Of a DNA stretch of 64,000 nt, positions 1,864-53,125 are shown one piece after another. The DNA is taken from assembly GCF_000829395.1 (NCBI RefSeq), contig NZ_AP014680.1, positions 124,001 to 188,000 of the forward strand. The letters are read 5' to 3'. The number at the start of each line of letters is the position of its first letter. Position 1 is the stretch's first letter. Source of the stretch: Paucilactobacillus hokkaidonensis JCM 18461 (lineage in GTDB: Bacteria; Bacillota; Bacilli; Lactobacillales; Lactobacillaceae). The notes under the pieces are model-generated. The model made no database searches. It was not told where the DNA came from and was given only the letters and a program-made list of their open reading frames with translations. The position numbers and the translations under genes were made by a program.

Positions 1864-1973
1864 GTGGTAAATAAGGCGGTTAGATTCTGAGCATAGCCTA
1901 GATTAACGAATGATCCGCACTTTGGATCGTTTGTTAATCGTAGCTAAGCGGAAGAATTTGCCTTATTTACCAC
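1864..1973 (+). repeat. Structured repeat copy A (nested hairpin)
   Basis: The closing stem is a perfect 14-bp pair: GTGGTAAATAAGGC at 1864-1877 with GCCTTATTTACCAC at 1960-1973. Inside is CGGTTAG, then a second partial stem (AGATTC with AGAAT), then a long inner hairpin (GATTAACGAATGATCC paired with GGATCGTTTGTTAATC). The flanks are AGA on the left and GTTTTAGCAATAA on the right, which recur in the other six copies. It lies between convergent genes, directly before a bidirectional terminator. Confidence 0.85.
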
Positions 1974-1984
1974 GTTTTAGCAAT

Positions 1985-2012
1985 AAAAAGTCGCCCAGAT
2001 GGACGACTTTTT
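1985..2012. terminator. Bidirectional terminator
   Basis: The hairpin AAAAGTCGCCC-AGAT-GGACGACTTTTT has A/T tracts on both sides. It can terminate the exporter transcript on the plus strand and the patB-like transcript on the minus strand. It directly follows repeat copy A. Confidence 0.8.
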
Positions 2013-2026
2013 TAGTTAGCATGTTT

Positions 2027-3175
2027 TTATTTAAATGCAGTGATAATCCGTTTAATTGCAGCGATCATTTGTTGTTTAGGCGTCGCAAAGTTCATGCGGA
2101 ACCAATGTTCACCATTTTCACCGTATTGAGCGCCTAAGTTAAGCTGCACTTTAGCGTCATTAATCAGTTTCTGATCAATTTCACCATCTGACAACCCTGT
2201 TTTAGAGAAGTCCAACCACATCAAGTAGGTAGATTGGGGCAGCATGGGAACAATGCTACTACCTGTGAACAATTTATAGGCCGTATCACGGTTGTCTCGT
2301 AAATATTCGATTAATTCATCGTGCCACCGTTCCCCTTTGCTCATGGCGGCCGTGGTGGCATTTAATCCCATTGTACTAATCTCAGCCCCAAATTCAGATT
2401 CGATTAGCGCATTAATTTGATTAGCCAAGTATTCATCCTTCACAAACATGTAGGCGTTTTTAACGCCAGGCATATTAAATGTTTTGGTGGCAGCTGAAAT
2501 AACCAAACTGATTCCCTCTGTGTCGGGTAACTCTAGTAAAGAAGTGAATGCGGCTGGTTGATAAACTAAGTCTTGATGAATTTCATCAGAAATAATAAAC
2601 GTGTGATATTGTTTTGCCAGGCTGACTAATTTGGTTAAATCAGCTTTTGTCCAAAGATGGCCACTCGGATTTTGTGGGTTACATAAAATCATTAACGGAA
2701 CACGCTGAGTGGCTAAAGCATGTTCCAATTTATCAAAATCAATGCAATATTGATCTTCATTATCAATTGTCAGATCAGAATTGATAATGTGGCGACCAGA
2801 ATTACGAATGGCGCTGGAAAATGGTGCGTAGACCGGATCAAAAATTAACACATTGTCGTTTGGTTTAGTGACTGTCCGGATTGCAAAGGATAAGCCAGGC
2901 AGCACACCAGTTAATGGAATGATCTGGTCAGGGGTTAATGTCAAATGGTGATGTTTGGCCTGCCATTTGATAATGCTATCAAAATAAGTTTTGGGCGTAC
3001 CAATGTAGCCTAAAATTGGTGATGTTGGCAATAAACTATCACGAATAAAACTAGGTGTAGCAAAGTCCATATCAGCTGTGGTCATTGCAGTAACCTCACG
3101 ATGCTCTGCTTGATCGGTGATTGCCCATTTGGCACTATCAGTATTTACACGATTGATGATTGTATTAAAATCCAT
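2027..3175 (-). CDS. patB: PatB/MalY-type aminotransferase (C-S beta-lyase)
   Basis: A 382-residue fold-type I PLP enzyme of the MalY/PatB subgroup, which usually cleaves cystathionine or other cysteine conjugates to a thiol, pyruvate and ammonia. The PLP-binding Lys is K231 in SAATKTFNMPG; ISDEIHQD around D197 contacts the pyridine nitrogen, and CNPQNPSGHLW carries the conserved Asn. The N-terminus (ADMDFATP) is typical. It is monocistronic on the minus strand, with an AGGAGAT site just upstream of ATG. The exact substrate is not visible; C-S lyase is favoured over a true aminotransferase because of the MalY-type motifs. Confidence 0.85.
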   Translation of the reverse strand: MDFNTIINRVNTDSAKWAITDQAEHREVTAMTTADMDFATPSFIRDSLLPTSPILGYIGTPKTYFDSIIKWQAKHHHLTLTPDQIIPLTGVLPGLSFAIRTVTKPNDNVLIFDPVYAPFSSAIRNSGRHIINSDLTIDNEDQYCIDFDKLEHALATQRVPLMILCNPQNPSGHLWTKADLTKLVSLAKQYHTFIISDEIHQDLVYQPAAFTSLLELPDTEGISLVISAATKTFNMPGVKNAYMFVKDEYLANQINALIESEFGAEISTMGLNATTAAMSKGERWHDELIEYLRDNRDTAYKLFTGSSIVPMLPQSTYLMWLDFSKTGLSDGEIDQKLINDAKVQLNLGAQYGENGEHWFRMNFATPKQQMIAAIKRIITAFK

Positions 3176-3254
3176 GGTTTAGATCTCCTTTGAATGTATT
3201 GTTGGGGTCATTTTAACATTCCAACATAGGTAAATGCATTAAAAATGGTGATGC

Positions 3255-3270
3255 TGTTTCACGTGGAACA
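3255..3270. promoter_or_regulatory. parS site 1 (ParB binding)
   Basis: TGTTTCACGTGGAACA. Its reverse complement is TGTTCCACGTGAAACA, identical to the Bacillus subtilis parS consensus as I know it. It lies between patB and the IS4 element, in the region upstream of the patB start. Confidence 0.8.
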
Positions 3271-3288
3271 ATTATAATTGTTGGAATT

Positions 3289-3317
3289 TTGAAACTTATG
3301 ATTGCTTAAGGTATGAT
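3289..3317 (+). promoter_or_regulatory. Promoter, now separated from the PLD-ATPase gene by IS4
   Basis: TTGAAA at 3289-3294 and TATGAT at 3312-3317 with a 17-bp spacer. Without the IS it would lie about 45 bp upstream of the ribosome site at 4926 of the PLD-ATPase gene. The IS begins only 32 bp after the -10 box. Confidence 0.65.
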
Positions 3318-3378
3318 ATACTTTAAAATATAAGTTAATTACAGTAAACTAAAGGTTGAAAGTTAATTATTCCTAATT

Positions 3379-3402
3379 AGCCCCGTTAATTCGGGGCTTT
3401 TT
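3379..3402 (+). terminator. IS-internal terminator against read-through
   Basis: AGCCCCGTTAATTCGGGGCT is followed by T residues, 30 bp inside the left IS end. It would stop transcription entering from outside, including from the promoter at 3289-3317. Confidence 0.8.
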
Positions 3403-3482
3403 CGTATAAAAATAGACACGAATCACTCCATGTCGGTATAATTGAATTACCACAAAACAATATACGAAGGAGTTTTCGTGTC

Positions 3483-4838
3483 ATGTCTACTATACAACAT
3501 TCTGCTACTGATATTCACCTTGCAATGCAACATTTTACCAAATTGGTACACTTACCTGTCATTCTTCGACGGGCAAATATTCATAAGACTCGTGGAATTG
3601 GAGTCCCAATCCTGTTTGAATGGTTAATTACCACCATTTTTGCTCGTTATTCTATTTCCCGAGCCCAAAGAAATCCTAAATTTACGAAAAAGACTGTTCG
3701 AAATTGTTTAAATGATTCGCACACGAATTGGCAAAAACTTGTTATTTTACTAGCCATTTATTTGATTCAGTATGTTGAACACTTTACGGATGCCCGTCGG
3801 GCACAAGCCTTTATTCTAGATGATTCTTTATTTAAACGTGAATTTTCCAAAAAAACAGAATTATTATCAAAAGTTTTCGACCACGATAAGCAAAAATTTT
3901 ATCGTGGTTTTCGTGGTCTAACCTTAGGATGGAGCGATGGGAATACTTTTCTACCCGTTAATTTTGCACTAATGTCATCTAATAATTCCAAAAACCGTTT
4001 TAATCAATTAAAACACTTTGATTGTCGATCCCTAGCCGCTAAACGTCGTTTTCAGGCACAACGTAAAATGAATGATGTTGCGCTGGAGCTCATTGATGAG
4101 GCACTTAAAGCGGGTCTTAAAACCAAATATGTCCTTTTTGACAGCTGGTTTTCTTCACCGCGCATGTTTTTTGAGCTTTTGCAGCGCGGCCAATTTGGCA
4201 TTGGCATGTTAAAACGCAGTAAAAAAGTATATTTTCGCTATCGTGGTCGTCAAATGGATGTTAAATCTCTATATACAATGTTAAGCCGTAGTAAACGGCC
4301 CACCCATACGACTTATCTTTACAGTTCGATCGTTAATTTTATTATTGATGGACATAAAATGAAAATTAAACTAGTTTACGTTGCCAACCGTAATAAAACT
4401 AATCAGTATTTAGTCCTTGGGACTACTAATACAGCACTGCAACCTAACCAAATCATTCAAATGTACGGACGTAGATGGCAAATTGAGGGGTATTTTAAGG
4501 TTGCCAAACAGTACCTTCAATACGATCATACACAGGTTCAGAGTTATGACGGACTTTGTGGTCATATGGCAATGGTTATTATGAGTTATGACATTTTAGC
4601 TCTTGAGCAGCGACAACAAGTTGATGATCGGACTTTAGGAGATTTGTTTTATCATTATGGTCAGTCATTACCTGATATTCGCGTCGTCGACGCGCTTAAT
4701 TGGTTGATGGAACAATTAAGTGGTCTAGGTGAAGCCTTGGGTAGTGCAGAAAGTATTATCAACGAAATATTTGATCACTTTATGCAAACATTACCTAATA
4801 ATTTAATTCAGTTGCTAGATACTACAAATAGATGTTAA
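3483..4838 (+). CDS. IS4-family transposase
   Basis: 451 residues, full length for IS4 transposases. It has the DDE catalytic triad: first Asp in ILDDSLFKR, second in LFDSWFSSP, and the Glu in the family signature YGRRWQIEGYFKVAKQYL (Y-R-E-K pattern). The gene starts at ATG after an AAGGAG site. It moves the surrounding element by cut-and-paste. No frameshift or stop is seen, so it may be active. Confidence 0.92.
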   Translation: MSTIQHSATDIHLAMQHFTKLVHLPVILRRANIHKTRGIGVPILFEWLITTIFARYSISRAQRNPKFTKKTVRNCLNDSHTNWQKLVILLAIYLIQYVEHFTDARRAQAFILDDSLFKREFSKKTELLSKVFDHDKQKFYRGFRGLTLGWSDGNTFLPVNFALMSSNNSKNRFNQLKHFDCRSLAAKRRFQAQRKMNDVALELIDEALKAGLKTKYVLFDSWFSSPRMFFELLQRGQFGIGMLKRSKKVYFRYRGRQMDVKSLYTMLSRSKRPTHTTYLYSSIVNFIIDGHKMKIKLVYVANRNKTNQYLVLGTTNTALQPNQIIQMYGRRWQIEGYFKVAKQYLQYDHTQVQSYDGLCGHMAMVIMSYDILALEQRQQVDDRTLGDLFYHYGQSLPDIRVVDALNWLMEQLSGLGEALGSAESIINEIFDHFMQTLPNNLIQLLDTTNRC

Positions 4839-4937
4839 TTTACTAAATTTAAGGACTAAATTCGTTATCACGCCTAAGCTGACAGCTCTTTTTGTGCTTT
4901 CAACCTTTAGACAGTAAACAATACAGGAGTGAAATCA

Positions 4938-6488
4938 TTGGGATTAATAACGAGTCATGTAATTTATAATGATGAAAATGTGGATTGGTCGATTGAAGAT
5001 ATTTTTGATGTCACTAAATTTGATCAGTTATTGGGCGTTACGTATTCTGTTTCGGCCAAGTTTATCCAAACGTATCTTGAGAAATTTGAACAAACAAAAT
5101 TAGTTGTTGGGATTAATAATGAGTCTGTTCAAAAAGCCGCAAATGGTGAAATTAACAAAGCAACTTTTAAAAATATGATGATTAATGTTTTAAAATCATC
5201 ATCAACCAAACTATTTGACCAGTTGGACGATAAGAGTCGAAATAAAGTGATTAATCATCAAATTGAGTTAAAAGTTCCATCGATTGGTTACGAAATTCAT
5301 TCGAAGTTTTACCTGCTTAAAAATAGTGAAACTGGTGCTACTAGAACAATTATCGGTTCTGCCAATTTGTCGCAGGCGGCATTTGATAATTCGTTGAACC
5401 AATTTGAAGAGATTTTTATTTTTGATGATAGTCCCCTGTATGCGAATTTAACCAAACATTTTGAGCAAAATATTGCACCGATTTTGACGGATTATTTTCC
5501 AAACGAATTATTTAAAGTTGTACAGGAAAAACAAACAGATTTGGATTTACAGGTTAATTTTGCCGCTCAAGGGGATGCCAATCAAATTAGTGGTATTACT
5601 GTAATTACAGAGGATGATTTAGATCGTATTAAAAGTCACGATGTGCTTGACCGGATGGAGGATGTTCAAGGTAAGATCCAACTAGGGTTACTAGATGATG
5701 ACATTGCTAGCGATATTAAGGACCTGCCTGAAGAACAATTTTTAGAACGGAATAAACATAAGGATGAAACGCAGTTAACTGAAACAACGTACAAAATTGC
5801 TAAGGATGTCATTTCTCCACGCAGTAAGACGCCCCAAATTGTTACACCACAAACGATGAAAAAGAAAATTACGCAACATTTAACAGTTAAGGTCACCAAT
5901 AGTGTTAATGAAGAGGTACCACAACGACCATGGCTAGTCCGCAAGGATACGATGATTGATACAGTCAATGGTAAGTCAGGACTGTTAGTTAAGGATGCAC
6001 TTAATCCAGATATTTTAGTTAATTTTGGGCATCGGGCTTCTCTGGATGAAATTAAAAATAGTTTTAAAAATATTAATCATCTATTGAATAATTATCAGAA
6101 ATATACTGTTAATTACAACGATGACTACGGTTCTAGAATTATGGAAACTATATTGTATGCTTTTTCAGCACCGTTTATTTCAGTTATGCGTGCGCATGCA
6201 CGTTCCAAAGAGGAACGAAATGACATTCCACAATTCTTATTTTTAGGTGGCATTGCTGGCTCGGGGAAATCGAGTTTATTACGTATTTTAGCTAAAATGA
6301 CACAGGTTTCCACTAAAACAGAAGATTATATTAACTACAATACAATTTTGCCACGTGGGGTGCATAATAAAAAATCTCAAACTATCACGCAATTAGGTAA
6401 TTGGTTACTAGAATCCAATGTCTATCCATTACTAATTGACGAAATTCCAGGTGAGTTTTTAGCAGTGCAAAGTATGGTGAGAACTTAA
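4938..6488 (+). pseudogene. PLD-nuclease/P-loop ATPase, N-terminal part before frameshift
   Basis: The best start is TTG at 4938, eight bases after AGGAG; the upstream GTG at 4929 overlaps that site. The N-terminal 180 residues resemble a phospholipase-D-type nuclease module: IHSKFYLLK and, 20 residues on, IIGSANLSQ, the HxK and GSxN signatures of the NgoFVII/PLDc_2 group. A linker of about 230 residues leads to a P-loop NTPase with Walker A GGIAGSGKSS near residue 437 and Walker B PLLIDEIP near residue 498. Translation then runs into TAA at 6486. The continuing frame at 6482 onward gives NLIVNMTNEIDEAYD, so a one-base change near 6482-6486 broke the gene. The promoter has been cut off by the IS. 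Function is unknown; nuclease plus ATPase suggests defence. Confidence 0.7.
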
Positions 6489-6496
6489 TCGTTAAT

Positions 6497-7174
6497 ATGA
6501 CTAATGAAATCGATGAAGCTTATGATACTTACCCAGCACTAATTGGTACCACTAATAATGATGCCTATTCGTTACCGGAACGAGCACGCCGGCGTAGCTA
6601 TTATTTGAAAAATGATAAGCCATTTGACGAGGAGTTTCGTGAAGATTCAGTTCAAGCATACAAGGAAGTTCTTGATGGCGCCAATAATGTTTTATTTCAG
6701 GATTTTGTTTTGCGATTCGCTGAAAAAATTGAAGATGAAAATACCAAATGGTCAGTGTTTGAACATGGCGGGAAGGTTGACTTTTTAAACGTTAGTCGTA
6801 ATATTTTTAAAGATTATTATCATGAAATGGATCAACCACTGCCAATCTATTTCCCCCAGCATCGGTATGATGATTCGCAAGAGTCTAATCAAGAAAAATG
6901 GCGAAAATTATTCCTAGGTTCTAGTCGTGATGATTTTACTTACAATAAGGAAAGCCAAACGCTGTTGTTTAAAATCACTACATTAGATGAAAATGCCAGT
7001 CGATATGGTGATGATAAGCCGTCGCGGATTTATAAGGACGCATTATCACCTAAAGTAATCGTGGGAACAGCTGATGGCATTGATATTGAGTTAAATGCAC
7101 CATTATTTTTTGACTGGGTTGGGATTGATAATCCGTTTGAACATCAGTCAATGTGGCAAAGATTTTTTAATTAA
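6497..7174 (+). pseudogene. PLD-nuclease/P-loop ATPase, C-terminal part after frameshift
   Basis: 225 residues in the shifted frame complete the ATPase region (TYPALIGTTNND resembles sensor-type residues after Walker B, and PERARRRSYYLK could carry an arginine finger) and a C-terminal domain ending in DPFEHQSMWQRFFN-like sequence that I do not recognise. The first ATG has no ribosome site, so it is not an independent gene. Joined to the preceding part the protein would be about 745 residues. No partner gene lies next to it, so it looks like a single-gene system. Confidence 0.65.
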
Positions 7175-7193
7175 CTGAACAAAGTATTAGAGA

Positions 7194-7399
7194 GTGAGAA
7201 AAAAGGCGGTTAGATTCTGAGCATACTCCGTTGTCCAAAGAACTAACTGCTAAAGCAGTAAGTTCTCATGGCAGCCTAGACTAACGAATGATCCGTACTT
7301 TGGATCGTTCGTTAGTCGTAGCTAAGCGGAAGCCATTATTACTTGCCGGTTTTCGGCTTAGTAATATGGACATCGAAGAGAATCTGCCTTTTTTCTCAC
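7194..7399 (+). repeat. Structured repeat copy B (with extra arms)
   Basis: The 14-bp closing stem GTGAGAAAAAAGGC / GCCTTTTTTCTCAC has a different sequence from copy A but is fully paired. The inner hairpin GACTAACGAATGATCC / GGATCGTTCGTTAGTC also shows paired changes. Two additional hairpin arms are present: AGAACTAACTGCT with its complement at about 7237-7265, and one around CTTGCCGGTTTTCGGC at about 7333-7370. This is the longest copy. Confidence 0.85.
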
Positions 7400-8895: not shown

Positions 8896-9053
8896 GTGGG
8901 CAATAAGGCAGATTCCTCCGCTTAGCTACGATTAACAAACGATCCAAAGTTCGGATCATTCGTTAATCTAGGCTGCCATGAGAACTTACTGCTTTAGCAG
9001 TTAGTTCTTTGGACAACGGAGTATGCTCGGAATCTAATCGCCTTATTGCCCAC
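8896..9053 (-). repeat. Structured repeat copy C (with one extra arm)
   Basis: On the minus strand the closing stem is GTGGGCAATAAGGC / GCCTTATTGCCCAC, fully paired. It has the inner hairpin and one additional arm (AGAACTAACTGCT hairpin) shared with copy B, but not copy B's second arm. It sits between the convergent fdh and DHA2 exporter genes. Confidence 0.85.
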
Positions 9054-13133: not shown

Positions 13134-13243
13134 GTGGGAAATAAGGCAGATTCTTCCGCTTAGCTACGATTAACAAACGATCCAAAGTCCGGATCATTCG
13201 TTAATCTAGGCTATGCTCAGAATCTAATCGCCTTATTGCCCAC
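13134..13243 (-). repeat. Structured repeat copy D
   Basis: On the minus strand the closing stem is GTGGGCAATAAGGC with GCCTTATTTCCCAC (one mismatch). It has the inner hairpin as in copy A and no extra arms. A weak hairpin (GAGGACC...ATCCTC, about 13076-13103) follows in place of the terminator seen after B and C. It lies between convergent merR and the lipoyl-protein gene. Confidence 0.8.
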
Positions 13244-16243: not shown

Positions 16244-16315
16244 GCGCCCTTAGTGTAATGGATAGCACATGAGATTTCGGTCCTCATGATCCGAGTTCGA
16301 CTCTCGGGGGGCGCA
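16244..16315 (+). tRNA. tRNA-Arg (anticodon TCG)
   Basis: It folds as a cloverleaf: acceptor GCGCCCT/GGGGCGC, D-stem GTGT/GCAC, anticodon arm TGAG(A) TTTCGGT (C)CTCA with one A-C mismatch, T-arm CCGAG TTCGACT CTCGG. The loop gives anticodon TCG for CGA arginine codons. The CCA end is not encoded. It is followed at once by a decayed integrase, so it was probably an integration site. Confidence 0.85.
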
Positions 16316-16316: not shown

Positions 16317-16422
16317 AGGCCGTCAGGCCTAGTATAGTAAGGCTTTTAGAGTGCACCAGTTCCAGAACGTATTCTGTTCATTTTAAAAAATTTGTACGAA
16401 ATTTGTACGAAATTATGATAAA

Positions 16423-17374
16423 TTAGTTTGCGTTGCGTTCTTGGTCGAGCCGAATCGCAAACTTTTTTTGTGCACTGAGATCGACCACATTAGGCTCATC
16501 TACATATAATCTTGTTGTTTTTTCATCAGAATGAGTCAACGCCTTGGAGATGTCTTCCATTGTTGCTCCACCTTCTTTTGCTAATGTTGCGAAAGTGTGT
16601 CGCAGCGCATGTGGATGCGTTTTGGCAAGCTCAGGATGATGTTTTTTGATTGTATTAAGCCTGTTGTTGAGGTATTCTGGGATCACAGGTTGATTTATTT
16701 CACCTTTTGAATTTGTAAACGTGAACACGAGTTGATCATCATTTTGCTCAATATCGAATTGATCTAATTCACGGTTTTGATAATCTTTCCAAATTTGAAG
16801 TTTTTGGGCTAGTTCTGGAGTAATCTGGAATCTAGTCTTTTTGTTTTCCTTCGTGGATTGAAGATTTTCGTCTCGATCCAGCGAGTGGATAACGTTAATG
16901 AAGTGATGGACTAGATCTAGATCAATGTCACGTCATTGCAGGCCGTACGTTTCACTCTTACGATCACCAATTGCAAGTGTAACGTGGAACATGGTGTAAT
17001 CTTGCGTTGTCAATGTTCCATTGTTGTGATCTTTCTCAATCGCATCAAGCCAAGCAAGTAATTGCTTGGCGGTTAAGGCATCACCACCAGCTTCTTCACG
17101 TTGCCGTTTGAGCTGCAGCTTTTTGGTTGTTACAGACTCGATACAGTTCTGATGTGACGTTATTTGAGTCAATATACTTTCTAGAGAACGCCTCACTCAT
17201 CATTTTACTAACGTAGCAGGATAGATTTTTAACGTTAGCAAAGTACTTACCAACTTCATTTAGTTTATCAACAACTCTAGCCGGATCAGTATTAAAAGAG
17301 GTGACCAACGTAGCTTTTGTTTTGCTAAAGCTCATTAAATCAACGTTTGAATTAATAATTATAAAAAAACACAT
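16423..17374 (-). pseudogene. Phage-type tyrosine integrase, degenerate
   Basis: The 3' part keeps the catalytic domain: PHALRHTFATLAKEG, THSDEKTTRLYV with the Tyr nucleophile. The frame continues upstream in register, but after ETYGLQ a TGA at 16933-16935 replaces the Trp usual in YGLQW, so it is a nonsense mutation. Further upstream (about 17150-17165) the frame shifts, with the SAM-like core-binding domain in another frame up to 17374. The N-terminal arm-binding domain is missing. The original enzyme would have been about 370-390 residues. It points toward the tRNA-Arg site, as is normal for such elements. Confidence 0.8.
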
Positions 17375-17387
17375 TCAAATTTATTTA

Positions 17388-17490
17388 TTGGAATTTTTTC
17401 GTTAATCATGTTAATATACTTAAAGAGTGAGAAACATCTGTGGCACCACAATAACAGTCACGTCTGCTAGCGTAACTGTTATTTTTTTAC
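17388..17490 (+). ncRNA. Antisense RNA of type I toxin locus 1 (predicted)
   Basis: Promoter TTGGAA (17388-17393) and TAATAT (17412-17417), 18-bp spacer; start near 17424; terminator AATAACAGT...ACTGTTATT plus seven T (17451-17488). The RNA would be about 65 nt. Its first bases (17424-17446) are a direct repeat of the toxin start region at 17623-17647, so the RNA can pair with the toxin ribosome site. Confidence 0.6.
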
Positions 17491-17534
17491 AAAAAAAGCG
17501 AGCCCTGCTAGAGACTCGCCGTGCGTACCTGACA

Positions 17535-17639
17535 TTACTTGCGATTATTAAGCCAGTAGGTGAATGTAACCGTGGACAAGCTGACAATAAGCCCTACGGC
17601 TAAAGGGAACAGCAAATATTTGAGAGTGAAAAACATCAT
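17535..17639 (-). CDS. Small membrane peptide, type I toxin candidate 1
   Basis: 34 residues: a short N-terminal segment, a hydrophobic helix (KYLLFPLAVGLIVSLSTVTF) and a charged tail (WLNNRK), the layout of Fst-type toxins. GGAGG at 17646-17650 is six bases before the first of two ATGs. The leader holds a hairpin CCGGG...CCCGG just before the ribosome site. A terminator (GCGAG...CTCGC plus T7, 17491-17520) follows. A convergent antisense RNA with a complementary repeat lies downstream. Confidence 0.6.
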   Translation of the reverse strand: MMFFTLKYLLFPLAVGLIVSLSTVTFTYWLNNRK

Positions 17640-17806
17640 ATAGCACCTCCTTCCCGGGATTCTCACTCCACTAATGAGCCCGGTACGGTGCCAGATAGCA
17701 CTTAATCATTATCGCTTAATTTTGCACAAAACAAAAGACCTTAACAGACCTTTTTTGGCTCTTCGTCAAGAAGTACTGATAACATATTTTAAGGACGTAG
17801 TCCTTG

Positions 17807-18582
17807 CTAAGCAACTAGTTTTCCTTCGGGAGGATTAGTTGTTTTTTTATTTTGTAGTTTTAAATTACTTTTATAGTTTATAGAATAGAAACTAATCGAG
17901 AATGCTACAAGAATCCTTAGCCTGAAATTGGTGAAGTTTCTAAAACCATATGCCGTTCGTTTTATTACTTTTATTTTATTATTGCATCCTTCCACGGGTC
18001 CATTTGTGAAGCCTCTATAGTTTTCAATAAAATTGTTAGCTATTTCATGATAATGCCTTCTTAGAGTCAGCTTCGCGCGATTCATCTCTTTTGGGAAATT
18101 ATCATATTGCGGATCATTTTTATCTGGATATATGTTTTGATGTAGTAGTTCAGCGTCCTGTCGTTGAATGGAAAACAAGATATCTTGATAAAAATTGTAA
18201 GCAGAACTAAGTTCTGGAGAAAGTGTTAAAAGTCTTTGAACAATTTCTTTCGACGTTCTCGTGAACCTTGATTAAAGCTTTTCATTATACGAATTCGTAC
18301 TTGTTGTAAGGCTGTATGGGCTTGTACTACCGCATGAAAGTGATCAGCTAGGATAAGTGCATTCGGGAACACGTTAGCTATTATTGGCCGATACGGTGAA
18401 AATAAATCAACAGTAACCGTTATGACCGCTTCGCGGGCCTTCCTTGAATAGCGAAGAAAATTTTTTTCTAGGCTTCCGCCTCCTCTATCAACTATTACAT
18501 CGATAGTTCTGTGAGTACTTATATTAACTAATTTTATTGTTTCATCCCCTGAAAGGGGTAAGCACGACAGTATTTCAATCAA
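17807..18582 (-). pseudogene. ISL3-family transposase remnant
   Basis: Two frames together give about 260 residues of an ISL3 transposase: VNISTHRTIDVIVDRGG, FPNALILADHFHAVVQ and, near the end, GPVEGCNNKIKVIKRTAYGFRNF. A frameshift lies at about 18210-18226 (KKLFK continues in the other frame as RLLTLSPELSSAYNF). The N-terminal third with the zinc finger and HTH is missing. No terminal repeats were found. Confidence 0.75.
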
Positions 18583-18635
18583 TCAGTTTAATGCTGACGT
18601 TTGGTTTGCTTGTTGTTGCCATTGTGAACATAAAA

Positions 18636-18678
18636 AAATAACCGTCATAGCTTTGGCCGGCTGACGGTTATTATTTTA
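18636..18678. terminator. Hairpin between transposase remnants
   Basis: AAAATAACCGTCA ... TGACGGTTATTATTTT. It can terminate the ISLre2-type fragment on the minus strand. Confidence 0.6.
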
Positions 18679-18683
18679 AAGTA

Positions 18684-18929
18684 TTAACTTGCTGGCCACC
18701 GTCTTAAACGGAAACCTAAGAACTCTGGCACACAGCTAGGGTTATTTTGTACACCTATACTAACATCAACACGCCTAGTTTTCAAATAATAAGTTTCGTC
18801 TAATTGAATTAAGTATTTAAATACAATTTCTTGAAACATTTCCCGCAAACAACGAATAACTTGTTCCTCCAAATCAAATAAACTATCTAAATTCTTCAAT
18901 GAATCAATAAAATCTGCTAAAATAAACAT
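18684..18929 (-). pseudogene. ISLre2 (UPF0236)-type transposase, N-terminal fragment
   Basis: 81 residues resembling the start of ISLre2 transposases (DSLKNLDSLFDLEEQVIRC, LIQLDETYYL), then diverging into an unrelated tail before the stop. Full-length members are 400-500 residues, so most is gone. Upstream (18930-18983) is a strong hairpin, AAAGACCTG ... CAGGTCTTTT, probably from the element's end. Confidence 0.5.
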
Positions 18930-19879
18930 GAAAGACCTGCATCCTTTCTTTTAATCTTGGTCGATTAAAAGGCTACAGGTCTTTTCTTATATATTCAATC
19001 TAAAATGAATATTCCTAGAAATATGTTGACCATCTAGGAAAACCTTACACTAACTATTTTTAGTACTAATTGTTTTTATTCTTGCAGCAGATTTTTTCTA
19101 GCTTTCATTCCTTCATTTTTTTAATAGCGTATTTAAAAAAATATATAGAAATCAGTCCAACGACAGCTAATGGAACACTGGTAACTGTCTAGCAGTTACA
19201 TGTTGGTAACAATTAAGGCTCGGATTACTCAGTCGGGCCTTTTTATGTACAAAAAAGCAGTGACTAGTCAGTTCACTGCCTAGTTGGGTAAAATCCTCAG
19301 AAACTTTCGCACGGTTATTGTATCATTTTCAATATTTTGGATCTTATAGCAGCATATAGCGGTCACATCTGTGGTTGTTAACAATCAGTCAGTTATCTAG
19401 TTAGATAATACGGCGATTACAGTAGCATATTTTGAATTGATGGCAAATTGACATGTAAATGCATAAAAAACACTATTCATTTAAGAATAGTGTACGGTCC
19501 CGCCCGCCTAACACAAAGATAAAAAATGAATACGTTCAGCTTGTTTTTTATTAAGATGTTAAAAATTAATTTAGTTACAAAACGATGTTATACCAGCGGC
19601 TTGATGGCAAAAACAAATATTTGTTTTTTGCTAAAATAATTCTCGGGGCGCATTGGGCAGCAAATCTGGTATGAAAATTTTTATATATATTAATTGCATC
19701 GAGCTTGGATAGCTAACTAGCTGCTCAGGCTTTTTATTTGCTCATTTTGAGTTAATTTTATTAAATTCAAATGTAATAGGATCTGAGATACCACTGAATT
19801 ATAATTTAGTCAGTGGCATCTTTTGTTATAATGATAAATGCCGCTTGCTGCTCCGCGGCTAGATAGGAGGTAGAACCTA
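18930..19879. other. Gene-free decayed stretch with broken toxin-antitoxin copies
   Basis: No intact gene. 19202-19346 is an older copy of the toxin-3'-end/antisense part of locus 2 (19966-20126), and 19355-19390 is a copy of the toxin 3' end alone. On the minus strand 19102-19190 encodes VPLAVVGLISIYFFKYAIKK without a start codon, resembling toxin candidate 1. The att remnant is at 19641-19653. The rest shows nothing I can name. Confidence 0.55.
19641..19653 (+). other. attR candidate
   Basis: TCTCGGGGCGCAT, equal to the tRNA-Arg 3' end (16302-16316) apart from two G residues. It bounds a 3.3-kb segment holding the dead integrase, toxin locus 1 and transposase remnants. Toxin locus 2 (19880 onward) lies just outside. 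Confidence 0.4.
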
Positions 19880-19975
19880 TTGAAAAGAAACTTTCGCAAG
19901 TTTGGAGTAGCGCTACTAAGTAGCATTATTGCAGGCTTAGTAGTGGCATATATCAGTCACATCTGTGGTTGGTAA
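19880..19975 (+). CDS. Small membrane peptide, type I toxin candidate 2
   Basis: 31 residues: basic N-terminus (MKRNFRKFG) and one hydrophobic helix (VALLSSIIAGLVVAYISHI) ending in CGW. The TTG start is nine bases after a perfect AGGAGG (19866-19870). The sequence AAACTTTCGCA at codons 3-7 is repeated at the 5' end of the convergent antisense RNA. A terminator with stem AAGG..CGG/CCG..CCTT and T7 (19981-20008) follows. Too short for routine ORF calls; the arrangement makes it credible. Confidence 0.62.
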   Translation: MKRNFRKFGVALLSSIIAGLVVAYISHICGW

Positions 19976-20017
19976 CAATCAAGGTTCGGACTAGTCACCC
20001 GGGCCTTTTTTTATGTA

Positions 20018-20113
20018 CAAAAAAAGCAGTGACTAGTCAGTTCACTGCTTAGGTGGGTAAAACCTTTAAAAACTTTCGCACATTCATTATAACATGTTCG
20101 GTAGCATTTTCAA
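20018..20113 (-). ncRNA. Antisense RNA of type I toxin locus 2 (predicted)
   Basis: On the minus strand: TTGAAA (20108-20113), 16-bp spacer, TATAAT (20086-20091), start near 20079, and terminator GCAGTGAACTGACTAGTCACTGC plus T7 (20048-20018), giving about 63 nt. The first bases are complementary to toxin codons 3-7. Its terminator hairpin and that of the toxin mRNA both carry GACTAGTC, which would allow loop-loop pairing. Confidence 0.62.
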
Positions 20114-20300
20114 TATTTTGGATCCATTGAGTTACTGTATAAAATTGCGACGGCGGTATCTAAATTCTTGTGTACCAATGGACGATCCAAATAAAGAAAA
20201 CAAGGTGTCGAAAACAACATTGGCACTATGGTATTTTTCCATCAAGACACAATAATTACAGATGAAGATTAGAAAAAAATAGTCCTGAATTTAATTAGAA

Positions 20301-20570
20301 CTATTTCTGTTCATAGTGTGACCAAGCTGATATTATTCTAACTATTTTGGTTTCTTTATCAATAGTGTATACAACTCTATGTTGACCGTTTAGTCTCCTT
20401 GAATATAGTTGAGAAGCTAGTGGAGTTAATTTTTCGAATTGTTGTGTAGGCTCGTAAGGATTGCTTTCTAGGGTTGTTAGTATTTCTTGAAAAGAACTTC
20501 GAAGCGGACTTTTTAGAATATTTTTTAAATCATGTTCGGCCGCTGGTTTTATCATTATTATCCAAGTCAT
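20301..20570 (-). CDS. yoeB: YoeB/Txe-family mRNA interferase toxin
   Basis: 89 residues matching the RelE/YoeB fold: FEKLTPLASQLYSRRLNGQHRVVYTID with conserved Arg/His, and the C-terminal SAWSHYEQK (YoeB ends typically in ...SHY). It cleaves mRNA at ribosomes when released from its antitoxin. It overlaps the antitoxin stop/start by one base, a coupled operon. Confidence 0.9.
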   Translation of the reverse strand: MTWIIMIKPAAEHDLKNILKSPLRSSFQEILTTLESNPYEPTQQFEKLTPLASQLYSRRLNGQHRVVYTIDKETKIVRIISAWSHYEQK

Positions 20571-20863
20571 TATGATTTATTTTTCTTTTCGTTAGCAATT
20601 TCAGTATCAATTTCAGCCATCATATCATCGATGTCAACATCATCTTTGTCATTTTCGTGAGCCATGGCAAATTGAAGTTGTCCGTTAGCAAGTAATGCCA
20701 TGGTTTCTTGGTATGCTTCCCAATCTTTTTTTCCAATTACTACAGCGGATTCACTATCATCACCATTAGCCTTAGTAATGATGACAGTTTTGCTGTTACT
20801 ATTAACATCCTTCAAGATAGAAAAGAGATTTTTACGAAAGTTCGTCGGTGTGTAGATGTCCAT
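20570..20863 (-). CDS. yefM: YefM/Axe-family antitoxin
   Basis: 97 residues of the Phd/YefM type: N-terminal DNA-binding/dimer domain (TPTNFRKNLFSILKDVN, SAVVIGKKDWEAYQETMAL) and an acidic disordered C-terminus that would wrap the toxin. Start ATG at 20863 after AAAGGGGAG. First gene of a two-gene operon; it should repress its promoter by binding 20908-20927. Confidence 0.9.
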   Translation of the reverse strand: MDIYTPTNFRKNLFSILKDVNSNSKTVIITKANGDDSESAVVIGKKDWEAYQETMALLANGQLQFAMAHENDKDDVDIDDMMAEIDTEIANEKKNKS

Positions 20864-24075: not shown

Positions 24076-24191
24076 GTGCTCACAGCCACAGAAGTTTACG
24101 TCTAACAATAAAATATACAACATAATTCAAAGACCGAATCATCTTGTATATTTTACCGTTAGACTCCAACTTCTCTCGTGGCTGTTCGCAC
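24076..24191 (-). repeat. Structured repeat copy G
   Basis: On the minus strand: AGA, then GTGCGAACAGCCAC ... GTGGCTGTGAGCAC (14-base arms, 4+7 paired with a small internal loop), then GTTTCAAATAAA. Inside are AGAAGTT/AACTTCT and a long stem GTCTAAC...TATAC with its complement. Sequence differs from copies A-D, but flanks, stem length and nesting agree. Confidence 0.7.
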
Positions 24192-26434: not shown

Positions 26435-26544
26435 GTGCGGAGCATCCCGGTTAGCTTCCGTGGTATAAGGTAAAAATATTGATGGCCTGATCTTGGTCAT
26501 TAATATTTTTACCTTATACGATAGGAAGCTGGGATGTGCAGCAC
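26435..26544 (+). repeat. Structured repeat copy E
   Basis: AGA, then GTGCGGAGCATCCC ... GGGATGTGCAGCAC (14-base arms, two mismatches), then GTTTCAGCAAT. After the left arm come CGGTTAG and AGCTTCC/GGAAGCT, then the long stem GTATAAGGTAAAAATATT with its complement. It starts eight bases after the 58-aa gene. Confidence 0.78.
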
Positions 26545-37930: not shown

Positions 37931-38044
37931 AAAAAAACTCCTTTTGCATAGGCAAAAAGAGTTAGTGGTGCACTCAGTTTGCTTATAGTCCAAAGTTTAC
38001 GGCTTTGGGTAGAAACTCGCCGACCATATCACGGCATTATATAG
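37931..38044 (-). promoter_or_regulatory. Guanine-class purine riboswitch with terminator
   Basis: On the minus strand the aptamer (38044-37981) contains TATAATGCC, GATATGG, GAGTTTCTACC, CCGTAAA and GGACTATA, the conserved purine-aptamer elements. The C in GACTATA (position 74 of the B. subtilis xpt aptamer) indicates guanine/hypoxanthine/xanthine rather than adenine. A terminator (AACTC...TTTTGC-CTAT-GCAAAA..GAGTT plus T7) lies at 37963-37931, before pbuX. Confidence 0.92.
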
Positions 38045-38184
38045 GCAATTGCGATTTAATTTGTAACTGAATGTTACCATCAAAATGATAGCAAAACAAC
38101 CTGGATTCACGAAATTATAAAATGAATGCGGATTCAATCCTAAATGGAAAATGTAGTATCATTGATTTAAATGGAGGCAATATT

Positions 38185-48037: not shown

Positions 48038-48059
48038 TGTGTGTTCCCCTCTCAAATAA

Positions 48060-48473: not shown

Positions 48474-49868
48474 ATGATGGCAGAGACCTTTCAATTTCAA
48501 GCAAATAAAATTACAGAGCTAGACGAGCACTACGATTTGGTGATTATCGGATCGGGTGCAACTGGACTCACCAGTGCAGTGCAAGTTGCAGAATTAGGAT
48601 TAAAGCCAGTTATCCTAGAAAAAATGGATAAAATTGGTGGCAATACTACGCGGGCTTCTTCTGGAATGAACGCTGCTGAAACAATGCCGCAGTTACAGCA
48701 TCATATTGTTGATAGCATGGACGAGTTTTATGACGATACATTCGCAGGTGGCGGTAAACAAAATGATCCACAATTATTGCGATATTTCACTGACCACAGT
48801 GCCTTAGCAATCGAGTGGCTAGCACGACATGATATTAACTTAGATGATGTGACCATTACTGGTGGCATGAATATCAAACGGACGCATCGGCCAAACTCCA
48901 TGCAGCCAATTGGTGGTTTTTTAGTAACTGAATTGTTAAAACAAGTAACTAAAAATAAAATCCCGCTATTTATCGGGATTCACGTAACAGATTTATTAAA
49001 AGATTTAACTGGAAAAATAAATGGTGTTCAAGCACAAATTGGTGACAAAACGGTTAAGATTAGTGCTAAAGCCGTCATTTTAGCAACTGGTGGATTTGGG
49101 GCCAATGCTAACTTGGTTGCTAAATATCAGCCAGAATTTAAAAAATACCCCACGACCAACCAACCTGGTGCCACGGGGGATGGGATTCAATTGGGAACTG
49201 CAATTGGTGCCCAAGCTGTGTCGATGGATCAAATTCAGGTTCATCCCACAGTAGCGAAAGTTGATGATCATGCATTTTTGATTGGCGAAGTACTGCGTGG
49301 CGAGGGCGCCATTTTAGTTAATCAAGCGGGTCAACGGTTCGTCAACGAACTTGATACTCGCAAAACGGTTACCAATGCAATTGAAACATTAAATGAAGGT
49401 GGTGCTCAGCTGATATTTAATCAGTCTGTTCGTGATCGTGTTAAAGCGGTTGAGTTTTACGATCGTATTGGATTAGTTCAGAGTAGTAGCAATTTAAACC
49501 AATTAGCCACACAAATAAAAATTGATCAAACAAAAATAGAGCAGACGGTTGCTACCTGGAATCAGGCAGTTGCGCAACGGTCGGATTTACAATTTGGTCG
49601 AACGACAGGAATGGAACGGCAATTAAATGTTGGTCCATACTACGCTATTCATATTTCACCAGCAGTCCATTACACAATGGGTGGACTAAAAATCAATGCA
49701 CAAACACAAGTGCTTGATCAAAATAATCATCCAATTGAAGGCCTATTTGCTGGTGGAGAAGTAGCTGGGGGTCTTCATGGTAATAATCGGATCGGTGGAA
49801 ATTCAATTGCTGAGACAGTTATTTTTGGTCGTCAGGCGGGACAACAAGTGTACCGGTATTTAATGTAG
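48474..49868 (+). CDS. Flavocytochrome-c-type fumarate (or related enoate) reductase
   Basis: 464 residues from ATG 48474 after AAGGAGA. FAD-binding GSGATGLTSAVQ at residues 25-36; ILEKMDKIGGNTTRASSGMNA; active-site region ending GGLHGNNRIGGNSIAETVIFGRQAG. This soluble single-subunit form lacks the heme and FMN-attachment domains. It reduces fumarate or a similar 2-enoate as electron sink in the cytoplasm. The exact substrate is inferred. Confidence 0.87.
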   Translation: MMAETFQFQANKITELDEHYDLVIIGSGATGLTSAVQVAELGLKPVILEKMDKIGGNTTRASSGMNAAETMPQLQHHIVDSMDEFYDDTFAGGGKQNDPQLLRYFTDHSALAIEWLARHDINLDDVTITGGMNIKRTHRPNSMQPIGGFLVTELLKQVTKNKIPLFIGIHVTDLLKDLTGKINGVQAQIGDKTVKISAKAVILATGGFGANANLVAKYQPEFKKYPTTNQPGATGDGIQLGTAIGAQAVSMDQIQVHPTVAKVDDHAFLIGEVLRGEGAILVNQAGQRFVNELDTRKTVTNAIETLNEGGAQLIFNQSVRDRVKAVEFYDRIGLVQSSSNLNQLATQIKIDQTKIEQTVATWNQAVAQRSDLQFGRTTGMERQLNVGPYYAIHISPAVHYTMGGLKINAQTQVLDQNNHPIEGLFAGGEVAGGLHGNNRIGGNSIAETVIFGRQAGQQVYRYLM

Positions 49869-51083
49869 TTCATGGAGCTTATCGGTAAGCGATAATAGCC
49901 GTTTGTTGAAAATAAATCCTAATAAGATTAGTAATAGACCAGTCGCGATTAAGATATACTTGATCGCAATTTGATCTGATAGCGGTCCGTAAACTAGCAT
50001 GGCAATTGGATAAATACCTGTTGAAAGAATTTGAAGAATTGAAAAGACGCGGCCCATTTTATTAGCGGGGATGTTTTCTTGAATTAAAATATTGGCCGAA
50101 GCTTGAATAATTGGCATACAGATGCCGGAAAAGAACATGAATAATAGATATACCCAAAATGGTTCTGGAATGCCCATAACAGCAAAACTAATTCCCGAAC
50201 CAATGAATCCAACTGTGATTAATTTAATTTTATTAGGTAATTTTTTATGGGTGGTAATGTACAGACTACCTAGTAATGCGCCAATGGTCCAAAGCAGTTC
50301 ATTCAATGTCAACCGCCAAACTCCAGAGCCAAATGTGCGCTTTACAAATAAAGTGGATAATTGAGATGATGGCGCAACAAGAATGAATGCCCCCATGATG
50401 AATAGCATGAAGTTACGTAAATATTGCCGTGAAAAAGTAAATTTAATTCCATCCCAAATACCAGGTAAAACGGCACTATGAGTGGTGATTTTATTTTCTG
50501 ATCCGTACACATGAACTAGTGACATTAAAATAATTCCAGTAGTAGCAGTAATTAGGTCTACTACGAAAATAAAAATGATCCCAAGTTTTCCTAGAATAAG
50601 GCCACTTAGAATTGGAGAAATTAAAAGTAGGGCGGAACTGATGAATTGATTTAAGCCATTAATCCGAGATAGTTCAATTTTAGGTGTAATTTCTGGCAGG
50701 AGTGCATTTCCGGCTGGAGTCTGTACTCCTGATCCTAATGAACGAATTGCTGCGATTAACAATAGTAACCATAAACTGCGGACTTCAAAAAAGTATAATA
50801 ACGCGGTACCAAATGTAAATAAGGTGACAAAAGAGCTGGAAAAAATAATCAGCTTTTTGCGGCTATACTGATCCGCCCAAATGCCAGCCCATAGTGAGAT
50901 GAGGATTTGGGGCAATGTAGTAGCCATAGTGGCCAACATGATCCAGGTTCCGGATGAAGTTTGAAGCGCAATGTACCATAAAATCGCAAAATAAACTGAT
51001 GAAGAACCAAACAAAAAGAAATTTTGAGCGGCTAAAAAGTAACCGATGTTTTTCTTCCAAGTTGGTTGTATGCGTGAATCCAA
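49860..51083 (-). CDS. MFS transporter (EntS/drug-type)
   Basis: 407 residues, 12 TM segments, with WAGIWADQYSRKKLI (motif A) and GSGVQTPAGNALLPEITP, typical of the MFS_3/TetA-like macrolide or siderophore exporters. Its 3' end overlaps that of the reductase gene by nine bases, convergent. Confidence 0.82.
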   Translation of the reverse strand: MDSRIQPTWKKNIGYFLAAQNFFLFGSSSVYFAILWYIALQTSSGTWIMLATMATTLPQILISLWAGIWADQYSRKKLIIFSSSFVTLFTFGTALLYFFEVRSLWLLLLIAAIRSLGSGVQTPAGNALLPEITPKIELSRINGLNQFISSALLLISPILSGLILGKLGIIFIFVVDLITATTGIILMSLVHVYGSENKITTHSAVLPGIWDGIKFTFSRQYLRNFMLFIMGAFILVAPSSQLSTLFVKRTFGSGVWRLTLNELLWTIGALLGSLYITTHKKLPNKIKLITVGFIGSGISFAVMGIPEPFWVYLLFMFFSGICMPIIQASANILIQENIPANKMGRVFSILQILSTGIYPIAMLVYGPLSDQIAIKYILIATGLLLILLGFIFNKRLLSLTDKLHELH

Positions 51084-51137
51084 GTTATGTCATCTCCTCT
51101 GTGTTGATTTTAACGCATTGAGCCTCCAAAATATATG

Positions 51138-51187
51138 CAAAAAAGCACTGTATTTAGCGAAATCAAATCGTAGAATACAGTGCTTTT
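51138..51187 (-). terminator. Terminator of the hydrolase-amidohydrolase operon
   Basis: AAAAGCACTGTATTCTACG ... TAAATACAGTGCTTTTTT on the minus strand, six bases after the amidohydrolase stop. Confidence 0.85.
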
Positions 51188-51192
51188 AATTA

Positions 51193-52137
51193 CTAAAGGT
51201 TTAACAATTTTTGTGCATTTGTTTTAAACATTTTTTGCTTAAACGCATCCGATAACATATTGGTATCTTCGAGCTGATTAGCTAAACTTAGTACAGCCGG
51301 AGTTGGAGTGTAGGGAGTATCAGAAGCAAAGACTAATTTATCAGAATCAATTAGTTGTAACAATGCTGGCAATTGCTGTGGTAATACTGATCCTGCAACG
51401 TCAAAATACTGATTGCTGAGGACACTTTTAATGTCAATTTGATCGTTCGTTAAATTGGGGTTCAACTGCTTAGCCAGCGGCACGCGACTAGCAATAATTG
51501 GTAAAACAGCGCCCGCATGGGGAATGATAAATTTGATATCAGGATAACGAGCAAAAATACCATGTTGTAACATATTAATAACAGCACGTGTAGTATCAAA
51601 GAAAAATTCCACAATTGGCGCTGGAATTTTATCCATTACCGTTGCGTCAAAAGTTCCCGGTGCATTTGGATGAAGAGCTACCAAAGCGTGACGTTTGTTT
51701 AGTTGTTGCATAATTGGATCCAATTTTGGATCACCAAGATAAGTACCACGAGAGTTTGTTGGTAAAGTGAATCCAGTAGCGTTTTGTTGGTCCAATGCGT
51801 GATCGATGGTCGTGATACTTTCAGCTACATAAGGAATTGGTAGTGAAGCAAAAAAGCCAATTTTATCTGCATATTTTGCATGTTGCGTAGCACCATATTC
51901 ATTAACTTCATCGGCCAATTCAATTGTGCTGGATTTTTCACCCGTGTTGATGTGTGGTGATGAAATTGATATGACGGAGTAATCAATATTGACTTGATCC
52001 ATAATTTGCAAGGTTGTATCAATATCGTATGCGGGAGTTTTAACACCATCACCCATGTCGTTAAATTGATCTTTTAAAAAACGTTTATATCCTGGAGAAA
52101 GGTAGTGCGCATGTAAATCTATTTTTGAATATTTCAT
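51193..52137 (-). CDS. Amidohydrolase 2/ACMSD-type metal-dependent hydrolase or decarboxylase
   Basis: 314 residues from ATG 52137 after AGGAGA; the long upstream extension is the 3' end of the preceding gene in another frame. TIM-barrel motifs: DLHAHYLSP (metal His pair), ALHPNAPGT, IIPHAGAVLP (metal His) and FASDTPYTP (metal Asp). ACMSD-like enzymes decarboxylate aromatic or enol acids. The substrate is unknown. Confidence 0.82.
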   Translation of the reverse strand: MKYSKIDLHAHYLSPGYKRFLKDQFNDMGDGVKTPAYDIDTTLQIMDQVNIDYSVISISSPHINTGEKSSTIELADEVNEYGATQHAKYADKIGFFASLPIPYVAESITTIDHALDQQNATGFTLPTNSRGTYLGDPKLDPIMQQLNKRHALVALHPNAPGTFDATVMDKIPAPIVEFFFDTTRAVINMLQHGIFARYPDIKFIIPHAGAVLPIIASRVPLAKQLNPNLTNDQIDIKSVLSNQYFDVAGSVLPQQLPALLQLIDSDKLVFASDTPYTPTPAVLSLANQLEDTNMLSDAFKQKMFKTNAQKLLNL

Positions 52138-52154
52138 AATTTTGTGTCTCCTAT

Positions 52155-52991
52155 TTAAAGTAAAACAGCTGCAAGCGTTGTTCCGAATCCTTCTTGTTTT
52201 TGGGCATAGCCAAGATGAGCACCCGGAATATTGTAGATAGTAACATCCCAATATTTAGCTAAGAAATCATTGACATCTTGTGGATATGAGCCACGAGAAT
52301 CGGTGCCATCTAATAAGCTGATTCGATCACGATATTGTTTTAGTTGATCAATATCAATTTTGCGACTAGTGTATTGACGAATTTCATATTGGAACCAGTA
52401 TTTCATTCCTTTGACGGCAGGATCTTCGTTACCATCTAAACTAACAGCGGGTTTGGACATTGCCTTAGCATCCATATCAGAAATCCGCATTGCTTTACCA
52501 AACTTTTGCATTGCGACACCCATGTTTTGCTCAAAAGCTGCTTTAACGATTTCGTTGTTGTCTGCCTGGTCCTGCTTAGCAGTTGGTAAGAAGCTATTAA
52601 TTGGTGGTTCATGGAATACGATTCGTTTTACGATATTAGGATAATCTTGCAATGTTTCCATGGCAACGATTGATCCGGAGCTGGTTCCCATGATATAAAC
52701 GGGTTCGTTTGGACTTAGTTCCTTAGCTAACGCTGCAACATCAGTAGCATCAGTTTTAATTCGGTAAGTACTATCAATATTTTCAGCTTCTGGTGGCAGT
52801 GGTTTGGTTAGTTCACTTTTACCATAACCACGGCGGTCAAACATCACAACTTTAAATTTATCTTGCATAAATTTGGCCGCTTGCCCAAAGATATTTCCGG
52901 TACCGTTAGCACCAGGGATAAAAATAAATACTGGACCTTCACCTAATGTTTCATAATATAATTTTGCATCGTCTCGATTTAAATAACTCAT
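52155..52991 (-). CDS. Alpha/beta hydrolase
   Basis: 278 residues. Oxyanion-loop FIPGANGTGN, nucleophile MGTSSGSIVA (GxSxG), and C-terminal His in IPGAHLGYAQ. It is co-transcribed with the amidohydrolase (17-base gap). With the divergent TetR and quinone oxidoreductase genes it forms a small catabolic or detoxification cluster of unknown substrate. Confidence 0.85.
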   Translation of the reverse strand: MSYLNRDDAKLYYETLGEGPVFIFIPGANGTGNIFGQAAKFMQDKFKVVMFDRRGYGKSELTKPLPPEAENIDSTYRIKTDATDVAALAKELSPNEPVYIMGTSSGSIVAMETLQDYPNIVKRIVFHEPPINSFLPTAKQDQADNNEIVKAAFEQNMGVAMQKFGKAMRISDMDAKAMSKPAVSLDGNEDPAVKGMKYWFQYEIRQYTSRKIDIDQLKQYRDRISLLDGTDSRGSYPQDVNDFLAKYWDVTIYNIPGAHLGYAQKQEGFGTTLAAVLL

Positions 52992-53014
52992 AATGAACCT
53001 CCTATTTTGTAAGA

Positions 53015-53125
53015 GTGTTAATTCAACCGGTTAGTGTTCGTAAGCTAAGTTAACTATCTCGTATTCGCGTTTTTGGCGAGCAGGAGATAGTTGACTTAGC
53101 TCTAGAACCCTGGTTGAATTAACAC
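53015..53125 (+). repeat. Structured repeat copy F
   Basis: AGA, GTGTTAATTCAACC ... GGTTGAATTAACAC (perfect 14-bp stem), then GTTTCAA. CGGTTAG overlaps the left arm edge, as in copies A and E. The inner stem pairs AGCTAAGT.AACTATCTC with GGAGATAGTT.ACTTAGCT. It lies in the leader of the hydrolase gene. Confidence 0.78.

Follow-up and report, generated by a model that had tools for sequence, protein, structure and literature searches.

REP and BIME repeats, which go with RAYT transposases, are extragenic hairpins found in 3' regions, forming arrays and recognised in a strand-specific manner, and the attC sites of integrons are recognised as a folded single strand, with a variable sequence and a conserved structure. 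Other families are described in published papers, excerpts of which are used here. BOX, RUP and SPRITE of Streptococcus pneumoniae are dispersed hairpin repeats that appear to insert into one another, with BOX being modular and transcribable (PMC3049150), and transcripts that contain Correia elements are cleaved by RNase III, and ERIC at the 3' ends of Yersinia genes alters transcript levels (PMC10969869). Here, we describe an element from Paucilactobacillus hokkaidonensis LOOC260T (2,400,586 bases in 3 contigs, with a chromosome of 2,277,985 bases), which on our best reading is REP/ERIC/BOX-like in kind. Seven copies, designated A to G, were initially noticed from sequence alone in a stretch of 64,000 nucleotides (nt), C1:124001-188000, hereafter the window. 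The unit of ~110-135 nt consists of AGA, a 14-bp closing stem (P1), a 4-nt bulge on the 5' side, a 7-bp inner stem (P2), an internal loop, a long apical stem (P3), the returning arm P1' and GTTTCA. Results presented below point to selection on the shape of these structured repeats, which form a family so far without a name. We put slightly better than even odds (about 0.52) on an old non-autonomous hairpin family of Lactobacillales whose copies enter at the ends of genes and are retained as folded boundary elements of mRNA, for which we infer both the enzyme and the RNA function.

The likeness to attC sites is a resemblance only, drawn from description, and as compared to REP/BIME the unit is much longer and the copy-richest Paucilactobacillus genomes contain no Y1 transposase domain. 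Like BOX, RUP and SPRITE, the family comprises dispersed hairpins in Lactobacillales with optional inner blocks and nested insertion; however, as far as a comparison by description goes, it differs in the compensated variation of its stems, a left end placed on stop codons and a strand-specific fold. Similarly, it shares with ERIC and the nemis/Correia elements of Neisseria the nature of short hairpin repeats in or near transcripts, whereas ERIC and nemis are treated as miniature inverted-repeat transposable elements (MITEs) with terminal inverted repeats (PMC10969869) and, again by description only, the arms of the present element vary and no target duplication is seen at the one readable site.

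Architecture, covariation and the folded strand

The left arm of P1 is made of GTG and 11 further bases, and the element closes with CAC followed by GTTTCA or similar, the sequence after the hairpin being most often GTTTCA, GTTTTA or GTTTAA. P3 is capped by an apical loop near GNNYTTT, and the 4-base bulge is mostly G-initial, with GGTT in 40/157 copies. Across the family pairing is kept and sequence is not, since 95 distinct left arms are present in 126 copies, and hence terminal inverted repeats alike in sequence, by which MITEs are defined, are not a property of the family as a whole; nor is the hairpin followed by the direct U-run of an intrinsic terminator. The A-group on its own has near-identical arms in common, and its copies carry up to two optional 48-base hairpin modules, each present or absent as a block, giving lengths of 110, 158 or 206 nt. 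Its apical loop reads G-N-ACTTT, in which the second base can be any of the four letters in otherwise near-identical copies, and many A-group copies (for example at loci L013, L015 and L017) are followed by a linker that is conserved and by a hairpin resembling a terminator, with AAAGAGGACGCAGCAAA.

The covariance model used throughout (R1) was built from 13 diverse genomic copies with the P1 and P2 pairs alone. The alignment has 135 distinct rows, including the model seeds and three reverse-strand matches of copies already in it, and, being fitted to R1, leans to P1 and P2; P3 pairing was obtained by scripts with a scoring neutral to mismatch type. Standard pairs fill 89.6% of the cells as compared to 62.6% upon shuffling, and the covariation score reaches 0.702 (shuffled, 0.191), values that none of 500 shuffles reached in either case, with slid controls not exceeding 0.127. 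Thus, the closing and inner stems covary strongly, and the possibility left by the original prediction that stem changes would lack covariation does not hold, as the signal is very strong by both shuffled and slid controls. In 28 disjoint sister pairs of copies from this genome, double Watson-Crick changes amount to 25 in P1, 19 in P2 and 54 in P3. Selection on structure, one of two causes initially offered for the paired change, is supported by this covariation over 135 rows, by the asymmetry of the folded strand and by paired changes at sites common to sister species.

The strand asymmetry was counted in 126 copies with P1 arms in register out of 139 with sequence, the other 13 being excluded whole. 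Mismatches in P3 comprise 341 G.T and only 25 A.C, with G.T outnumbering A.C in 119/126 copies, seven ties and no copy with fewer. This excess is found in every gene context, including 78 versus 9 where both neighbours run antisense to the element, and therefore it is the element, and not transcription of its neighbours, that determines which strand folds. At the same time, the element strand is predicted to fold more stably than its complement in 255/265 copies from three genomes (mean difference 10.4 kcal/mol), with the reverse in eight. Insertion on the lagging strand was tried as a candidate and discarded: orientation relative to the replichores is 80 to 70, taking the origin to lie near contig position 1, and this split is due to gene orientation.

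The second cause initially offered, template switching or gene conversion between inverted repeats, would keep the arms complementary without any selection. P1 mismatches are indeed symmetric (G.T 31 versus A.C 33), and in the 28 sister pairs double Watson-Crick changes are about as numerous as single ones in P1 (25 versus 26) and exceed them in P2 (19 versus 13). However, P3 is strongly strand-asymmetric, G.A mismatches are found at P1 position 5 in 77/126 copies and at position 6 in 61/126, and 56 P3 cells of the sister pairs hold an unchanged G.T. If one arm were templated on the other, neither the bulge nor the conserved G.T pairs nor the G.A mismatches at P1 positions 5-7 would survive, and no strand would be favoured; template switching is therefore rejected as the cause of the paired arms, and we leave it a very small probability.

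Copies in the window, the genome and the order

In the window, copy A (1864..1973, plus strand, 110 nt) has P1 arms at 1864-1877 and 1960-1973, the bulge GGTT, P2 and P3, and no optional module. Copy B (7194..7399, plus strand, 206 nt) contains both modules, located by hand-counted borders at 7226..7273 and 7333..7380 on the plus strand, and copy C (8896..9053, minus strand, 158 nt) contains module 1 alone, so that the greater length of B and C is explained by two and one 48-base hairpin modules, respectively. Copy D (13134..13243, minus strand) is 110 nt long with one arm mismatch, and copy G (24076..24191, minus strand, 116 nt) has two arm mismatches and a bulge other than GRTT. Copy E (26435..26544, plus strand, 110 nt) attains 115 bits, the highest model score in the genome, and is also a model seed. 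Copy F (53015..53125, plus strand, 111 nt), which is F-type, is located 23 nt upstream of the point where the divergent gene 52155-52991 has its start codon.

All seven copies are present at the positions where they had been predicted, with the correction that the minus strand carries C, D and G. Perfect complementarity of the arms in A, B, C and F (0 mismatches each) and few mismatches in D, E and G (1, 3 and 2, with G counted by eye) agree with what had been described, as does CGRTTAG after the left arm in 6/7 copies with G as the exception; in contrast, the tail GTTTYAGCAATAA, attributed to most copies, is exact in only 3/7 (A, C and D). The copies do lie between genes, with G overlapping the predicted start of an open reading frame (ORF) that is over-long, since its bile-salt-hydrolase-type Pfam domain starts at residue 35. 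The seven score 50.8-115 bits with the covariance model, to which A, E and F match by construction because they are among its 13 seeds, and seven other window matches do not exceed 24.5 bits, three of them being opposite-strand hits to A, E and F. Folding z-scores, obtained for A, E, F and G, range from -9.1 to -13.4. At up to one mismatch, the left-end motif AGTG-N10-CGRTTAG has 7 matches in the window, one of them unrelated, versus 1.03 in shuffled sequence.

A genome-wide search with a covariance model, suggested along with the original prediction, revealed a family far larger than seven copies. Instead of these seven only, at least 150 matches are obtained in this genome, and among those listed 145 are at E<1e-7, 149 at E<1e-5 and one at 0.048. 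Searching retrieved stretches again turned up more copies, among them six tandem units at locus L234, bringing the total to 168 places, and hence the true copy number is probably higher. With copy A as a DNA query, 58 matches were obtained, some being fragments of one copy, and the left-end motif occurs 52 times in this genome versus 7 times for the reversed pattern, although at least 2 of 30 motif matches inspected are without a fitting right arm. Tandem arrays of 4-6 units with slightly different stems and a spacing of ~125-132 nt can be seen at L234, L266 and L274 and at G000:C1:658205-658734. The 3' half alone is repeated behind 16/155 copies here and 27/112 in relatives, and in 38/43 cases such repeats start at element position 37-63, around the apical hairpin. 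At G000:C1:1904662, 2042482, 2043889 and 1911001, one left half is followed by several right halves with similar linkers between them, and at such 5'-truncated arrays the left half could pair with any right half.

Among relatives, matches at E<=1 number 124 in P. kaifaensis (G001), 123 in P. suebicus (G005) and 124 in a further Paucilactobacillus genome (G006), and at the same threshold genomes G007 and G010 have none. In a sample of Lactobacillaceae, for which no more than 17 matches were scored per genome, 104/201 genomes and 24/40 genera have a match at E<=1e-6. Sampling of the order Lactobacillales gave matches in 18/198 genomes, of which 11 are outside the family Lactobacillaceae. Three of these 11 have 6-14 matches and the remaining eight 1-3, and isolated weak hits in other families could be due to chance. 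Fourteen stretches inspected from nine of the order-sample genomes, four of them from the same family, all present the same nested hairpin with its bulge. In 12/14, AGA precedes the hairpin and GTTT or ATTT follows it; several have another unit thereafter, and the first P1 pairs covary as GAG/CTC, GCG/CGC and GTG/CAC. Searches of plasmids with copy E and two copies from relatives, and of phages with copy A, gave no match. In viral contigs, a pattern scan found five stretches (L392-L396) that match the left-end motif.

Fit to gene ends, insertion and evolution in place

Upon merging of tandem units, 128 groups are obtained, of which 117 have enough flank to be placed by simple ORF calls. The left neighbour is co-oriented with the element at 82/117 loci and opposite at 35/117. 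Of the 82, 44 have a stop codon 0-6 nt before GTG, and in 16 the ORF reads into the element. When copies preceded by a tandem unit are set aside, 46/129 here and 34/85 in relatives have an in-frame stop 0-6 nt to their left, and the mirror-image control at the right end, made with all copies, yields 1/155 and 2/112, thus showing no such fit. At many copies the first bases of the element complete a TAG stop codon, and TAG is the stop in 33/46 cases here and 22/34 in relatives as compared to 12/42 window genes without an adjacent element. Thirteen opposite-facing copies, 8 of which are F-type, lie 16-27 nt from a divergent start codon, mostly just upstream of the Shine-Dalgarno sequence; no regulon common to the copies near divergent genes is apparent, their neighbours looking diverse. 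By coordinates (L065 1136-1341), the element at G000:C1:838180 is located between a T-box leader and a gene reading as leuS.

A fixed distance to the stop codon or the Shine-Dalgarno site, together with strong covariation and tolerance of G.U, could be expected of a classical RNA serving the neighbouring gene, cis-regulatory or non-coding (a riboswitch or a leader, for instance), that is abundant by chance. This account is unlikely: the neighbours read as unrelated housekeeping genes (for ten window genes with Pfam), the elements occur in both orientations, their strand bias persists with antisense neighbours and they bear evidence of mobility.

Such evidence comes from empty sites, which, as proposed with the original prediction, were sought in sister genomes and indeed found. 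The site of copy G is empty in P. kaifaensis and that of copy B in G006; that of copy A is empty in G006 and occupied by a degenerate copy in P. kaifaensis, with the junction being ambiguous in an A-run. Copy E is found in P. kaifaensis too, reduced there by loss of its right half, and P. wasatchensis does not have it. No target site duplication is visible at the G site, which is the one readable site, as few empty sites have a readable right junction. For ten gene ends with a copy here, 27 ends from relatives could be aligned (none for one of the ten), of which 26 are usable and one falls short of the gene end; by eye, 16/26 carry an element or a degenerate element, with 12 TAG and 4 TAA stops. 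Conversely, a gene without a copy here ends TGG TAA and its P. wasatchensis counterpart reads TGG TAG AGTG. Most simply, the element would insert behind the T of TAA and itself supply the AG that makes the stop TAG. One P. wasatchensis copy lies within the 3' end of a coding sequence, with the frame reading into the element, and in the present genome one A-group copy (2192494) is nested in P3 of another, in the unit after 2192321. In a bolder and more tentative version, which we hold to be possible, an ancient Lactobacillales class of mobile element, recognised by its structure, would have inserted into stop codons and rebuilt them (T^AA -> T-AG-AGTG), expanding in some lineages to far more than 100 sites, and would have been co-opted as a standard RNA boundary element downstream of translation stops with a trans-acting partner that reads shape and not sequence.

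Evolution in place was addressed with 114 distinct copies of P. kaifaensis and G006, mostly best model matches with the addition of some loci chosen as orthologous gene ends, and excluding inner units of tandem arrays. Ninety-seven copies have an ordinary, non-unit left flank, and for 42 of them this flank matches that of a copy here. When the flank match was required to come within 15 nt of both elements, 38 common-position pairs at 33 sites of this genome were retained, with a median element identity of 0.69; 18/38 exceed 0.69, which is the 95th percentile of random pairs. Common sites below 72% identity often hold units of a different subfamily. At 15 sites with at least 72% identity (one pair per site, 602 paired cells), 73 double Watson-Crick changes were observed versus 6.9 expected if the changes were independent, besides 32 gains or losses of G.T, 13 A.C and 25 other mismatches. 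The excess of double changes implies that the structure is selected in place and not only during spread.

These results also bear on the view that the hairpins are purely selfish, folding for copying or insertion only, seemingly conserved through repeated re-insertion at preferred sites and of no benefit to the host. It would readily accommodate the empty sister sites, the nested copy, tandem units of different subfamilies, decayed copies and the presence of different subfamilies at one site across species, with 20/38 pairs at or below 0.69 identity. Nevertheless, the 73 double changes against 6.9 argue that the structure is kept after insertion, and the left flanks common to 42/97 relative copies, a few of which derive from loci chosen as orthologous gene ends, speak for inheritance in place, making a purely selfish nature doubtful. 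According to the boundary-element reading that we prefer, copies would have spread by an insertion that needs a folded single strand, RNA or DNA, without obvious target duplication, and would persist where they immediately follow a stop codon or closely precede a Shine-Dalgarno site. Within mRNA the folded structure would mark and protect the boundary, for example against exonucleases, with a copy retained directly behind the stop serving as a stable cap, and the enzyme of the spread might be gone from this genome.

Known families, enzymes and implications

Using PF01797 at E<=1e-5, by which recognisable domains alone are seen, no Y1 transposase was found in the genome of P. hokkaidonensis or in G001, G005 and G006. 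Likewise, the reverse transcriptase domain PF00078 (RVT_1) has no match in 12/14 genomes, including this one, G001 and G006; one match is present in G005 and eight in G017. Mobilisation by a Y1 transposase, in a system of the REP/RAYT or IS200/IS605 type, could fit the single-strand fold, the lack of a visible target duplication where one site could be read, the asymmetry of the ends and the left-flank preference. Yet three of the genomes without PF01797 hold 124, 123 and 124 model matches, and we rate this as the least probable of the accounts considered.

That no named family corresponds to the element, as originally claimed, is borne out by Rfam, which at the gathering threshold finds in the window a purine riboswitch and a tRNA alone. 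The riboswitch (RF00167, 69.5 bits) lies at 37966-38064 on the minus strand, and the tRNA-Arg(tcg) at 16244-16315 is followed by short minus-strand ORFs at ~16400-20860, possibly an integrated or degraded mobile stretch. When nine loci were searched permissively against Rfam (E<=1), the elements were overlapped by microRNA models alone, all of which scored far below their gathering thresholds. Literature searches among open-licence papers retrieved no report of this hairpin family. The portion of the text of PMC4377027 that deals with LOOC260T and was consulted does not mention the repeat, and in the excerpted parts of a 2008 survey of stem-loop families Lactobacillus is named once, as L. johnsonii in a table (PMC2267715). 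A 2010 survey of structured RNAs describes, in the sections used here, several Lactobacillales motifs with Rfam numbers (PMC2864571), none of which is among the Rfam matches of the window or the nine loci.

Several observations weigh against an mRNA boundary element derived from an insertion at gene ends. The lack of a Y1 transposase or reverse transcriptase domain in the own genome counts against a simple mobile-element account. The 35/117 antisense loci weigh against a simple 3'-untranslated-region account, since with a divergent left gene the folded strand is absent from the mRNA of that gene, and in the window copies A-D are placed 11-24 nt away from the stop and not on it. Ten of the 26 relative ends are empty, with 9 TAA and 1 TGA as stops by an eye tally, and some common copies decay, as do A and E in P. 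kaifaensis. Identity of at most 0.69 at 20/38 common positions means that re-insertion or unit replacement also happens, and the in-place test, by admitting only copies intact to the model, favours paired changes and under-counts losses. Of five covariation measures, the count of pairs changed on both sides is the sole one not beyond shuffles (19 versus 17.3, equalled by 40/500). Finally, P1 is without G.T preference (31 G.T versus 33 A.C in 126 copies, 40:40 in non-F copies), for which protein contact on P1 is one guess.

For lactobacilli, this family would represent an abundant structured repeat that Rfam does not match. The way it fits stop codons and Shine-Dalgarno sites would constitute an unusual insertion preference tied to translation signals, which can be read by comparative genomics. 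With the strand asymmetry and the compensation in place, the question of what reads the fold becomes testable in common laboratory lactobacilli.

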